From IMG/VR virus record IMGVR_UViG_3300030389_002782, positions 3,680 through 50,469 of that record: a stretch of DNA of 46,790 bases. One strand, given 5' to 3'. Every line of letters starts with the position of its first letter. Position 1 is the stretch's first letter. Source of the stretch: a virus. A program made the translations under genes and the position numbers. Positions 3,640 through 43,967 of the stretch are shown in pieces. The notes below the pieces were generated by a model. It saw only the letters and a list, made by a program, of their open reading frames with translations, was not told the DNA's origin and did no database searches.

Positions 3640-4253
3640 TGGGAAGAGCAATAGATTTATTTGTTACATATCGATTTATCAAACTGTTAACCACACCGTT
3701 TGAAAAGTCTGAAGCGTTTAAGTTAGGCATAATCGATAAAGACGGAAACAGAATTAAAAAACCTAAATCAACAAAACCAGCAGTTGAACTTACCACATCT
3801 GAACAAAAGGCTGCATATACCATACTTCATAAATTAGTATTCAATATCAAAAAAATATTTTCCAAAGTGCCGGGTCTTAGAACAAAAGTAGGAACATATG
3901 CGGCCGCATTGTTTCTATTGAAAGATACATTCAAAGAGTCTATAGAAGACCCAGATATGTTTGAAAAAGAGTTTTTAAAGTATTTAAAAGAGGAAGGTGT
4001 AGAGTTTGATGATGAAATACAAGAAGAAGTTATTGGATTTGGTGAACAACTTCCTAAAGGTAGATATAGATTAAAACAAGATATACTAAATAAAGAAGAA
4101 GAAGAGTTAACTGCAAAGAAGGGTGACATCGTAATTGCATTTGATGATGAACCACCAGTCGATACAGTTTTAGGAGTAGAAATTTTTTCTGTGATACATG
4201 AAAAATCACAAGAGAAAATTTATGTAAGTTTAGAGGACTTAGAAGATGCTTAA
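3639..4253 (+). CDS. Conserved T4-like marine phage protein with hydrophobic helix, 204 aa
   Basis: The N-terminal half (VTYRFIKLLTTPFEKSEAFKLGIID, then LVFNIKKIF and LRTKVGTYAAALFLLKD) looks like a conserved family I associate with marine T4-like phages. The C-terminal half is acidic and beta-like, with a lysine-rich patch near residue 148 (LTAKKGDIVIAFDDEPP). One Ala-rich hydrophobic helix lies around residue 90. Position next to the capsid-type genes suggests a head or assembly protein; no enzymatic motif is visible. Confidence 0.65.
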   Translation: MGRAIDLFVTYRFIKLLTTPFEKSEAFKLGIIDKDGNRIKKPKSTKPAVELTTSEQKAAYTILHKLVFNIKKIFSKVPGLRTKVGTYAAALFLLKDTFKESIEDPDMFEKEFLKYLKEEGVEFDDEIQEEVIGFGEQLPKGRYRLKQDILNKEEEELTAKKGDIVIAFDDEPPVDTVLGVEIFSVIHEKSQEKIYVSLEDLEDA

Positions 4254-6412: not shown

Positions 6413-6991
6413 ATGGAAATATTACTAACACTTGCCATGAAATTTTGGCAGTGGACTGTTTTAATAAGTTTAATTATTATTGGTTTTATTGTTAATCTTT
6501 TCGATAAAAAGGTTGACAACAGAGTCAATTTTTCATATAATGACTATCCACACATGAAACCAATTAGAATTGAAACAAAAGGAAAAGGTTTCTTTAAAAT
6601 GATATTAATGTGGCTTCTCGGTGTAAGACATTGGGAGATTACAAAAGATTTTACTTTCTCACTAGAAGGTAAAAATTATGTCATACCAGCAGGTTTTACT
6701 TTTGATGGTGCAAGTATTCCAAAATTTTTGCACATGTTCTTATCACCTGTTGGAGTGCTTTTAATAGGTGGACTCATACACGACTATGCTTATAAGTATG
6801 AAACTCTATTAGAAGATAATAAGAAAGATACTATGGGTATCATATCTCAAAAAAGAGCAGATCAAATCTTTAGAGATATTAATATCGAAGTAAATGGTTT
6901 CTATCTTATGAATTACTTAGCATACTGGTCACTAAGACTAGGTGGATTTATGGCGTGGAACAAACACCGTAAAGTCAACGCTAAGATATAA
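6413..6991 (+). CDS. DUF1353 protein with N-terminal membrane anchor, 192 aa
   Basis: Residues 8-28 form a membrane span (FWQWTVLISLIIIGFIV). Residues 75-150 match what I know of DUF1353: a beta strand with IPAGFTFDGASIPKF, then GLIHDYAYKY. The conserved FDGAS-P and HD-xxY residues may form the active or binding site of this family, whose reaction is unknown. It lies between a holin-like gene and small membrane genes, so a role at the envelope during lysis or release is an inference. Confidence 0.65.
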   Translation: MEILLTLAMKFWQWTVLISLIIIGFIVNLFDKKVDNRVNFSYNDYPHMKPIRIETKGKGFFKMILMWLLGVRHWEITKDFTFSLEGKNYVIPAGFTFDGASIPKFLHMFLSPVGVLLIGGLIHDYAYKYETLLEDNKKDTMGIISQKRADQIFRDINIEVNGFYLMNYLAYWSLRLGGFMAWNKHRKVNAKI

Positions 6992-39681: not shown

Positions 39682-41280
39682 CTAGTTTCTGGCGGCGACT
39701 GCCATTGAAGTTAAGAAGTCCATACCTGATATAGGTCTTACAGTTGTTGTGCTATCACTGATTGTTGTTGTCGGTGCATTCGTTACGATTGATGTTCCCA
39801 CAGACATTGCTGAATCTAAATCTTCTAATAGTTTTTGTCTTTGTTCTAAATTAGTAATCGCATTTTCTAAATCTCTTTTCAATACTGCAAACTTTTGTTC
39901 AGATTGTATATCATCTCTCTTTATTAAATTTTTTAATGTACTAAGATCATCATCCTCTAATGGGCCTGAGAGTAAATTCTCTATCCTAGACCGACTCATG
40001 CCTGCAGTTGGATTGAAACTAAAGATATCTGCATCACCACCTAAAAATGTTGGTAGTTTACTTTTATCTAGTGTAAAATCTTCTTTATCAATATCAAGTA
40101 ATCCAAATGTTAAACTGTTAATTAATCCAGCAAGACTTGCTTTAAATATTTCAATCGCTTTTTTCATTGGACTTAATGCTTGTGTTGTCTCATCTTTTGC
40201 CTCTTCTAATCCAGCTGCAACCGTATCAAATATAGAGAAAGCGGCAGTTGTAATAAGTGCAATAGGACCTGCAGTTTTTGAAACAATTCTTGCAGAGGCA
40301 AATGCTTTTGATAAAAACCCAACTTTAGGAGTGGCAGTTTTGACTCCAGCTGCAATCTTACTTGCCTCTGCACCTGTGGGTATACCTATGAAAGATTTTA
40401 TTTTACTACCAATACTTTTTATACTGGTTGTTAATGATGCAAACTGAGTTGCCAGAAATCCACCTTTAGCAAATAAACCTGTAAACTTAGATATGACACC
40501 ACCTTTTTTGGTTAAGTTGGCTGCATCTGCACCCTTAGTTGATTTTGTTAGTTTTTTAAATGTCTCTGATAGAAATCCACCTTTTTTAAATAATCCTACA
40601 AATTTTTTACCTAACAAAAATGGTAGTCCTAATCCAAATCTTAATACTTTAAATGGTGCAAATAAAGTGATTAATGCGGCCAATCCTAATGCTATTGTGC
40701 CACCGTCACTAAATAAATTATTTAAATTTTCTAAATTAGGATTATTTAAAAATGTTTGAAAACTTTCACCTATATTCGTAAATGCAGCTATCACATCTTT
40801 TGCAAAGTTCATCACGTTTTCAATCACGATAGGTAGTTTTTCTGCTAAAATATCTTTTGTTTTAGTCCATAATTCACTATTTAAAAATGCGATTGCACCT
40901 GTTAGAAATATAATAAGTGGTACTGCAGCCAATCCTAATTTAAGTGGTTCTAATGCTGTTTTTAGAGGTGATATAAATTTAGAAAATGTGTTTTGTATAC
41001 CTGATCCAATACTTGAGAATGTTTTTTGTAAACCTTGAAAAAGTTTTGATTGAGTGAGTCTGTCTTTAAATCTTTGAGTAATAGTTTGTCTATTATTTTC
41101 TTGTTGTTGATTTTGTTGATCTTTACTCTCTTTTTTTATAGTGTCTGATAATTCTCCAATAGAGTCATCTTGCTGTTCAGTGGTTTGAATACCAACAACT
41201 TTTTCCAACAATTGATTTTGTAATTTATTATCTTTTGTTATCTCTGCTAATAAACTTGTTTGTTGTGCGATCTCAGACAT
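39682..41280 (-). CDS. Tail tape-measure-like protein, 532 aa
   Basis: The sequence is mostly helical, with N-terminal coiled coil (residues 1-75, Gln/Lys-rich), then long hydrophobic and Gly/Ala-rich segments (LKLGLAAVPLIIFLTGAIAFL; LGLAALITLFAPFKVL) and FKKGGFL-type repeats near 235, 260 and 275. This is typical of tape-measure or hub-tail-length proteins (T4 gp29 role). It directly follows the gp26-like gene and the frameshifted small ORF, the usual order for tail chaperone and tape measure. Sequence identity with gp29 is not claimed. Confidence 0.65.
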   Translation of the reverse strand: MSEIAQQTSLLAEITKDNKLQNQLLEKVVGIQTTEQQDDSIGELSDTIKKESKDQQNQQQENNRQTITQRFKDRLTQSKLFQGLQKTFSSIGSGIQNTFSKFISPLKTALEPLKLGLAAVPLIIFLTGAIAFLNSELWTKTKDILAEKLPIVIENVMNFAKDVIAAFTNIGESFQTFLNNPNLENLNNLFSDGGTIALGLAALITLFAPFKVLRFGLGLPFLLGKKFVGLFKKGGFLSETFKKLTKSTKGADAANLTKKGGVISKFTGLFAKGGFLATQFASLTTSIKSIGSKIKSFIGIPTGAEASKIAAGVKTATPKVGFLSKAFASARIVSKTAGPIALITTAAFSIFDTVAAGLEEAKDETTQALSPMKKAIEIFKASLAGLINSLTFGLLDIDKEDFTLDKSKLPTFLGGDADIFSFNPTAGMSRSRIENLLSGPLEDDDLSTLKNLIKRDDIQSEQKFAVLKRDLENAITNLEQRQKLLEDLDSAMSVGTSIVTNAPTTTISDSTTTVRPISGMDFLTSMAVAARN

Positions 41281-41441
41281 TATCTACTCTTTCTTTGTTG
41301 TTCCTCTCTTGCTTTTCGTTCTTCCTCTTTTAAATATTCTACCAACATTACGACATAGATTTCTCTTTCCCATGGCATCATATCTTCGAGTTCACTTAAA
41401 CTATACTTGTGGTGTTGCATCAAACTAAAGTTTGTCTGCAT
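41280..41441 (-). CDS. Small tail protein, probably the frameshift extension of gp26
   Basis: MQTNFSLMQHHKYSLSELEDMMPWEREIYVVMLVEYLKEEERKAREEQQRK resembles a small conserved ORF next to gp26 in marine T4-like phages; the PWERE helix is like tail assembly chaperone extensions. The reading frame is open back to the T8 run at 41476-41483 and is closed just before it (TAG, 41484-41486). So the protein is made from an internal ATG or, more likely, as a -1 frameshift product of the 42169 gene. Its stop overlaps the tape-measure start. Confidence 0.7.
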   Translation of the reverse strand: MQTNFSLMQHHKYSLSELEDMMPWEREIYVVMLVEYLKEEERKAREEQQRKSR

Positions 41442-41473
41442 GTAGTTTTCCACAGTATCATGAGAAAGACAAA

Positions 41474-42169
41474 TTAAAAAAAACTATCTAAACCCTCCAA
41501 TAGAATCTTATTCTTCTTTTTAGTCTTAGAGTTTTTTACTTCAATCTCATGTCTTACTTTAGGCATAGTATTAAAAAAGTCCATAACCTTTTCAAACTGT
41601 TGAGTATTAAATGAATCAAAAAAGTCATCTAATTCTTTTTCAGTGTAATCACCTTTTCTCATAACACTATCTTTTGTGCGTATCTCTTTGACACATTTTT
41701 TTATAGTGTTAAAAACCTCATCAGTGCTTTGTTTGCCAGACATATCAACATCCTTAATTGTAGGATAATTCATAACGATTTTCACATCATCTGTTATATT
41801 TATCTCATTTGTGTGATTTTCTGGCATCTGAACATTGATGTCTTCTAAATTGATTTTTACTTTTTCTTTAGTTTTATTATCATCTGGGCAAGTCACTACT
41901 ATATCTACTGTCTCACCAACTGACTTTGCTCTTAGATTTAAAAAAACATATTCTAAATCAAACAAAGGGTTTTTTTCTGTGACTATACCATATGTGCAAT
42001 TCTTGATAATATCAAGTGTTGCCTGTGTCATCATATTTGACTTGTTACTTTGTTGTGCTAATAAAAGAACTTTTTGTTCTTTTACAAGGAAAGGTCGAAA
42101 CTCAATGGTTTCGCCTGTTGAGGGTAGCTCCAAAGGATACTTTGGAGTGTTTAATATTGGCAGTGCCAT
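41474..42169 (-). CDS. gp26: Baseplate hub/tail assembly protein, T4 gp26 family, 231 aa
   Basis: MALPILNTPKYPLELPSTGETIEFRPFLVKEQKVLLLAQQS and FDLEYVFLNLRAKSVGETVDI are the gp26-like (T4_baseplate family) signature in marine T4-like phages. T4 gp26 is 208 aa. SD AGGAGCG precedes the ATG. The 3' end has a slippery T8 run with an SD-like stimulator, so a longer 296-residue form may be made by -1 frameshift. It is the upstream gene of the tape-measure-like gene, where tail assembly chaperones are usually encoded. Confidence 0.78.
   Translation of the reverse strand: MALPILNTPKYPLELPSTGETIEFRPFLVKEQKVLLLAQQSNKSNMMTQATLDIIKNCTYGIVTEKNPLFDLEYVFLNLRAKSVGETVDIVVTCPDDNKTKEKVKINLEDINVQMPENHTNEINITDDVKIVMNYPTIKDVDMSGKQSTDEVFNTIKKCVKEIRTKDSVMRKGDYTEKELDDFFDSFNTQQFEKVMDFFNTMPKVRHEIEVKNSKTKKKNKILLEGLDSFF
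41476..41498 (-). promoter_or_regulatory. Programmed -1 frameshift signal at the end of the gp26-like gene
   Basis: On the minus strand, an SD-like GGAGGG (41498-41493) is followed by nine bases and then T TTT TTT within a run of eight T, just before the stop: codons GAT AGT TTT TTT TAA. A -1 slip reads TTT TTT TTA ATT and continues into the small ORF (12 linker residues, then 53). An SD nine bases upstream of a slippery run is the layout that stimulates -1 frameshifting in E. coli dnaX. Confidence 0.7.
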
Positions 42170-43470: not shown

Positions 43471-43917
43471 TTATTTATACTTGGGTGCGAGATGATCTTC
43501 ATTTAGTATTAGAAACTCTAAACCCTTATCTTTACAAAAGTCTTTTGCATACTTAAATTTTGCCTCATTCATCGCATATGTCTTGACTGATTTTAACCAT
43601 GCTTTTGTGCGTTTTTTTGGATTAGCAGGGGGTTGTTTCATGTCTTTCTTAGGTTTTACTTCAACAATAAACTTCTTTATAGATCCGTCTTTCTGTCTTA
43701 CTGTCATGTAGAAATCTGGGTAGTATCGATGCATTTTGCCGTCAAGAGGCGAATAATAAGGTATTACTATTTCTTCACTACCCCATTCTAATACACTTGT
43801 TTTTTTATCACAATAGACCATTAATCTTCTTTCCCATAAAGATCGATAGATAATTTTCATAGGATTACCCTTGTATTTGTCTGGGTTTGTCGGTATGTAT
43901 CTTCCACTATATGCCAT
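43471..43917 (-). CDS. gp4: Head completion protein gp4
   Basis: The start is taken as the ATG at 43917 (MAYSGRYIPTNPDKYKG), as in T4 gp4. Residues RSLWERRLMVYCDKK, VLEWGSEEIVIPYYSPLDGKMHRYYPDFYM and KKFIVEVKPKKDMKQPP match gp4 with its PD-(D/E)XK-like core (D, then ExK). The length of 148 is equal to T4's 150. It completes filled heads before tail joining. It shares a 50-base divergent promoter region with gp48. Confidence 0.92.
   Translation of the reverse strand: MAYSGRYIPTNPDKYKGNPMKIIYRSLWERRLMVYCDKKTSVLEWGSEEIVIPYYSPLDGKMHRYYPDFYMTVRQKDGSIKKFIVEVKPKKDMKQPPANPKKRTKAWLKSVKTYAMNEAKFKYAKDFCKDKGLEFLILNEDHLAPKYK
43472..43479 (-). promoter_or_regulatory. T4-like late promoter box (minus strand)
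   Basis: TATAAATA reads leftward at 43479-43472, 23 bases upstream of the gene starting at 43449 and overlapping the stop of gp4. The position fits a late start for the tail block. Confidence 0.55.
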
Positions 43918-43936
43918 GTAAACCTTTAGTATATCA

Positions 43937-43953
43937 TATAAATACTCTTTATA
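43937..43953. promoter_or_regulatory. Divergent late promoter pair between gp4 and gp48
   Basis: Rightward TATAAATA (43937-43944) lies 24 bases before the gp48 ATG. Leftward TATAAAGA (43953-43946), one mismatch from the late octamer, lies about 29 bases before the gp4 start. The 50-base gap (43918-43967) thus seems to carry back-to-back late promoters, with SDs AAGGAA (rightward) and AAAGG (leftward). Confidence 0.55.
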
Positions 43954-43967
43954 CAAGGAATATTTAG

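Follow-up and report, generated by a model that had tools for sequence, protein, structure and literature searches.

Does the phage represented by the window (the whole stretch of 46,790 nucleotides that was analysed, i.e., positions 3,680 to 50,469 of the IMG/VR virus record IMGVR_UViG_3300030389_002782) make a single protein from its gp26-like tail gene, or two of them, with some ribosomes changing frame at the end of this gene? Our in silico analysis points to the latter: with a probability of about 0.93, the window phage, a marine T4-like phage, makes two tail assembly chaperone isoforms by a programmed −1 ribosomal frameshift of the G/GT type. The slippage itself, the slippage rate and the chaperone role are what we infer in this reading.

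The minus strand carries all frameshift features of the window. The gp26-like gene (42169..41474), which would encode the short form of 231 aa (TAC-N, the 'G' equivalent), ends in TTGGAGGG TTTAGATAG TTTTTTTT AA, i.e., a Shine-Dalgarno (SD)-like GGAGGG, nine bases and eight T's. GGAGGG occupies 41498..41493, nine nt (TTTAGATAG) upstream of the T run, and the run itself extends over 41483..41476, its last T being the first base of the 0-frame TAA stop codon (41476..41474). This stop directly adjoins the slippery heptamer T_TTT_TTT, which lies in frame at 41483..41477. On its upstream side, the T run is adjoined by a TAG in the −1 frame (41486..41484), which closes this frame there, and the −1 frame is therefore open only from the T run to 41280. 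The resulting −1-frame extension (TAC-C, the 'T' equivalent; gp51-like) comprises 65 codons and a stop (41477..41280), the TAA at 41282..41280, which shares bases with the ATG starting the next ORF (TAATG). In the window, it can be reached by a frameshift or by an internal start, and by nothing else. The predicted fusion has a length of 296 aa and the junction SFFLICL. The original prediction, made from this DNA alone, had described a gp26-like gene ending in an eight-T slip run with GGAGGG nine bases upstream, a −1 frame open only from the slip site and a fusion of 296 residues, and it was correct in each detail checked; it mentioned neither the minus strand nor the earlier reports of such frameshifts in T4-like phages. 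At the start of the gp26-like gene, a strong terminator-like inverted repeat, GCTCCAAAGGATACTTTGGAGT, is located on the opposite strand (42127-42148).

To place this site in a wider context, relatives were gathered by similarity to gp26-like proteins and not by the slip motif, yielding after removal of six truncated loci a set of 287 loci (205 distinct), including the window and the named phages. A T_TTT_TTN heptamer was present in the correct frame in all 287 loci, its end being 0, 3 or 6 nt away from the 0-frame stop. From the codon usage in the same genes, the heptamer would be expected in only about 40% for identical amino acids, so its conservation exceeds chance. The third 0-frame codon of the heptamer encodes Leu (TTA/TTG) in 126 and Phe (TTC/TTT) in 79 of the distinct loci, while the codon preceding it always ends in T; this alternation indicates that the bases, not the amino acids, are kept. 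Owing to kinship among the mostly marine loci, the 205 distinct loci stand for fewer than 205 independent events, but even so, an exchange of amino acids over a fixed string of bases would be hard to explain otherwise. The same type of heptamer also occurs in Pseudomonas pf16, Menderavirus, Acidovorax ACP17, Aeromonas G2, Cronobacter LPCS28 (Straboviridae), Rhizobium IC12, Sinorhizobium phiN3, KVP40 and cyanophages. The conservation of run and frame in related phages, named in the original prediction as a way to check it, is hence borne out by the relatives, none of the 287 loci lacking the slippery run.

Further support comes from the sequence downstream of the slip site. Its distance to the PWER motif amounts to 108 nt in all 198 loci with a recognised motif; of the remaining seven loci, five lie on truncated contigs, and the other two retain an open frame with an altered motif. 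Between +15 and +105, no locus contains a stop in the −1 frame, whereas the other two frames are interrupted in 201 and 200 loci. Neither of the two conditions by which the original prediction would have been refuted, a lost slippery run or an intervening in-frame stop, was thus encountered among the 287 loci.

An open and conserved −1 frame could also be explained if the gp51-like domain were a separate small protein with its own start, used either independently or by ribosomes that re-initiate once gp26 has ended. In the window, the −1 ORF holds two possible starts (GTG at +30, ATG at +42), so the case against initiation in this phage depends on its relatives. Consistently, public annotation lists gp51 as a gene of its own in P-SSM2, S-PM2 and KVP40; KVP40 has TAATG, and in this phage and some cyanophages the slip site is closely followed by an ATG at which translation could start independently. 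Moreover, in Klebsiella May, Vibrio K476 and Vibrio YC (L302, L303, L305) the heptamer is missing, yet a −1 ORF still follows at or close to the end of gp26. However, in 117 of the 205 distinct loci the −1 frame is free of ATG, GTG and TTG as far as +57, and still the stretch is conserved as −1 coding sequence, as reflected by −1 codon-position entropies of 0.50, 0.45 and 1.12 for positions 1, 2 and 3, the low-low-high pattern of coding. A separate start is excluded for these 117 loci unless a non-standard start codon is used. A separate protein would furthermore leave the invariant heptamer, the biased GGAGG codons and the fixed 108-nt offset unexplained, and we consider it improbable. K476 and YC also have TAATG and, together with May, could represent a third route to express the long or C-terminal part.

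Still less probable is an origin of the fusion at the level of transcription, with RNA polymerase stuttering on the T run, so that ordinary translation of a fraction of the mRNAs, with more or fewer U's, would yield the fusion. Transcriptional slippage begins near eight T's, which is the length of the run in the window, and hairpins can stimulate this process, too. Nearly all relatives, however, have only six T's, as far as known too short a run for such slippage, while a GGAGG at a set distance and a hairpin after the run fit the mechanism on the ribosome. The least credible option is that the T run arose by chance or sequencing error and that the gene is really one in-frame fusion. Although homopolymer runs are error-prone, the same frame relation was found in 287 of 287 loci from many assemblies as well as isolated and sequenced phages, and the bases after the run and the stop codons differ among the loci, so that the comparative data refute this explanation.

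Most loci carry an SD-like element in one and the same position, at a set distance upstream of the heptamer. In the 205 loci, GAG is used for its Glu in 90%, in comparison to 25% in the rest of the gene, and the preceding Leu is encoded by TTG or CTG in 73% versus 22%. GGAGG is consequently selected beyond the protein level, which provides, at the level of codons, the conservation of the SD-like element that the original prediction had left to be checked. A palindrome, GAGGGCCTC, extends over the SD-like element in 33 of the 205 distinct loci, about 17 to 6 nt before the heptamer; GGC (29% vs. 8%) and CTC (23% vs. 3%) are enriched at this place. A stop codon directly after the heptamer is common to only five of the 205 distinct loci, namely the window, L002, L004, L031 and L081, all with GAGGG. 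As a conjecture, we suggest that slow termination at the abutting stop may help the slip in this set of five.

Many relatives, in turn, feature a hairpin of 7 bp with a 4-nt loop, which starts 6 nt after the heptamer and hence directly after the stop. In its full length, it was found in 48 of 198 distinct loci (about a quarter), compared to 10.1 (sd 2.7, maximum 21) when synonymous codons were shuffled among the loci. In the central pair, the third position of a Leu CTN codon is matched to that of an Asp/Glu GAN codon, as A-T (27), C-G (21), G-C (37) and T-A (11). For a test of covariation, independent evolution was simulated on the gp26 tree in 500 runs and the mutual information was determined per pair. 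For pairs 2, 5, 6 and 7, the observed value was reached in 0 of 500 simulated runs; pairs 1, 3 and 4 carried little or no signal in this test, with 12, 19 and 500 of 500 runs, respectively, attaining the observed value. The number of distinct full stems (9) was not above that of the shuffles (9.1), and the claim of a hairpin therefore rests on its frequency and covariation. Three hairpin-bearing loci gave no match in Rfam at gathering score, and a fold of 12 sequences from hand-picked hairpin-bearing loci serves as illustration only. In the window, the hairpin was sought at the conserved place and not found.

The gp26-like protein matched PF12322 (T4_baseplate, E 4e-65) in Pfam and phrog_150 ('baseplate hub', E 3e-68) in PHROG. 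The −1 extension matched phrog_634 ('baseplate hub assembly catalyst', gp51; E 5e-28) and also the C-terminal end of phrog_150, a family spanning both the 0-frame part and the extension. For the AF2 model of the gp26-like protein (pLDDT 88.6), the top match in VIA-align was the HK97 tail assembly chaperone 2ob9 (Z 7.5, 82 residues, rmsd 4.1; a Z below 8 can reflect a common arrangement), followed by 3fgx (Z 6.6) and later rows at 4.4 and 2.5. A Foldseek search of the same model against the PDB gave no match with E < 0.001, the HK97 chaperone appearing at E 5.9 and ranking first only in the subsequent VIA-align comparison. A tail assembly chaperone as first structural row fits the frameshift-chaperone hypothesis, at a Z that could arise by chance. 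The head closure protein (phrog_218) encoded at 43471-43956 (−) has a second match, to the N-terminal domain of TnsA-like endonucleases (PF08722, E 3.5e-23).

The original prediction had expressed doubt about such a frameshift for T4 gp26, and the alignments resolve it. In hhalign, T4 gp26 aligned to the 0-frame part (E 1e-16, 199 columns), and its C-terminus, FFELL, comes without a heptamer. T4 gp51, in contrast, aligned to the fusion across the junction (E 9e-10, 223 columns), its residues 14-243 corresponding to positions 22-277 of the fusion profile, and it covers PHROG 150 from 13 to 280. Since gp51 aligns through the junction, it represents a permanently fused form and gp26 the short form; T4 therefore possesses one gene for each form (26 for the short, 51 for the long one), in line with what is cited for T4-like phages in PMC10885494. 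T4 gp51 is required for assembly and absent from the particle (PMC3004832).

The next ORF in the window (41280..39682, minus strand; 532 aa), whose start overlaps the −1 stop, is probably the tape measure gene. It gave no profile match in PHROG or Pfam, T4 gp29 showed no meaningful match to an alignment of its family, and its AF2 model is all helical with a pLDDT of only 34; its probable identity as tape measure is accordingly drawn from place, size and this low-confidence model. Of the G/GT-type frameshift before the tape measure in the original prediction, the frameshift was supported by heptamer, SD-like element and open −1 extension, with the structural match in keeping, while the tape measure is a probable assignment.

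In the programmed frameshift as we picture it, the majority of ribosomes would halt at the TAA and release the short form of 231 aa. A minority would slip back by one base on T_TTT_TTT, with tRNA-Phe occupying both the P and the A site, and read on to give the long form of 296 aa with the gp51-like domain. Pairing of GGAGGG with the anti-Shine-Dalgarno of the 16S rRNA would favour the slip, as might the abutting stop codon in the window phage. By analogy to lambda gpG/gpGT, the short form could coat the tape measure protein, while the C-terminal domain of the long form could recruit the tube subunit.

Several known systems share parts of this arrangement. Vladimirov, Gautam and Davidson (Virology 566:9-15) reportedly described in 2022 conserved frameshifting in several groups of T4-like phages and the use of genes 26 and 51 by T4. 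The T4-like gp26/gp51 chaperone pair, with frameshifting in several T4-like groups according to papers citing this work, belongs to the same protein families as the window proteins; T4 itself differs by its two separate genes, 26 (short) and 51 (long), in place of one gene with a slip site. To our knowledge, neither the covarying hairpin nor the stop-abutting variant is known from the 2022 study. In the literature, where that study is represented here by papers citing it, no report of the covarying hairpin was found. In E. coli dnaX, a −1 slip is combined with an SD-like element about 10 nt upstream and a hairpin about 6 nt downstream. The SD-like element is common to dnaX and the window, whereas the downstream hairpin is matched in many relatives only, and dnaX is an unrelated gene that slips on A's. 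The heptamer of lambda G/GT, GGGAAAG, likewise differs from that of the window. Otherwise lambda G/GT is alike: its chaperone gene, which lies just before the tape measure gene, has a −1 slip site close to the 3' end and yields short and long isoforms (PMC5009743). Frameshifting chaperones before the tape measure gene are indeed classical, although the review still excepted T4 (PMC5009743). In Vandenendeviridae and Andersonviridae, the chaperone frameshift uses a GTTTTT motif (Pseudomonas phage Adele, PMC12846349); these phages belong to other families than the window phage, but likewise have a chaperone gene that ends in a T-rich slip site, and a conserved −1 frame. In PMC10885494, Vladimirov et al. 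are cited for T4-like phages in which the short form and the long fusion have separate genes, and in PMC12846349 for poly-T slip sites in T4-like chaperone genes. As chaperone frameshifting has already been published for T4-like phages (2022), the window frameshift is not new in kind.

These data have consequences for the annotation of related phages. Hundreds of marine T4-like genomes list a small ORF as 'baseplate hub assembly catalyst gp51'; very likely, it represents in most cases the C-terminal domain of a frameshift product instead of an independent gene, and 'baseplate hub gp26' is very likely better read as a tail assembly chaperone. The second half is missing from the annotation in some records; in Synechococcus phage ACG-2014b (L084), for example, the gp51-like part is unannotated between gp26 and the next gene. 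The RefSeq 'tail assembly chaperone' of Pelagibacter phage HTVC008M (I899_gp144) is a homologue of a DUF1353 protein in the window (6413-6991, plus strand; PF07087, E 9e-14), which is encoded far from the tail chaperone locus; this RefSeq entry was rejected as probably misannotated.

Finally, the stimulators of the slip could have been swapped between lineages at one homologous site, an idea that we put forward tentatively and at somewhat below even odds: the heptamer, mostly with GGAGG, would be fixed, while the hairpin was gained or lost and some lineages, including the window phage, would have an abutting stop instead. The covarying hairpin and the stop-abutting variant from the comparative set could be compared in one reporter system. 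If true, such lineage-exchanged helpers would constitute a natural series for studying how a fixed ratio of short to long form is kept under different stimulators.
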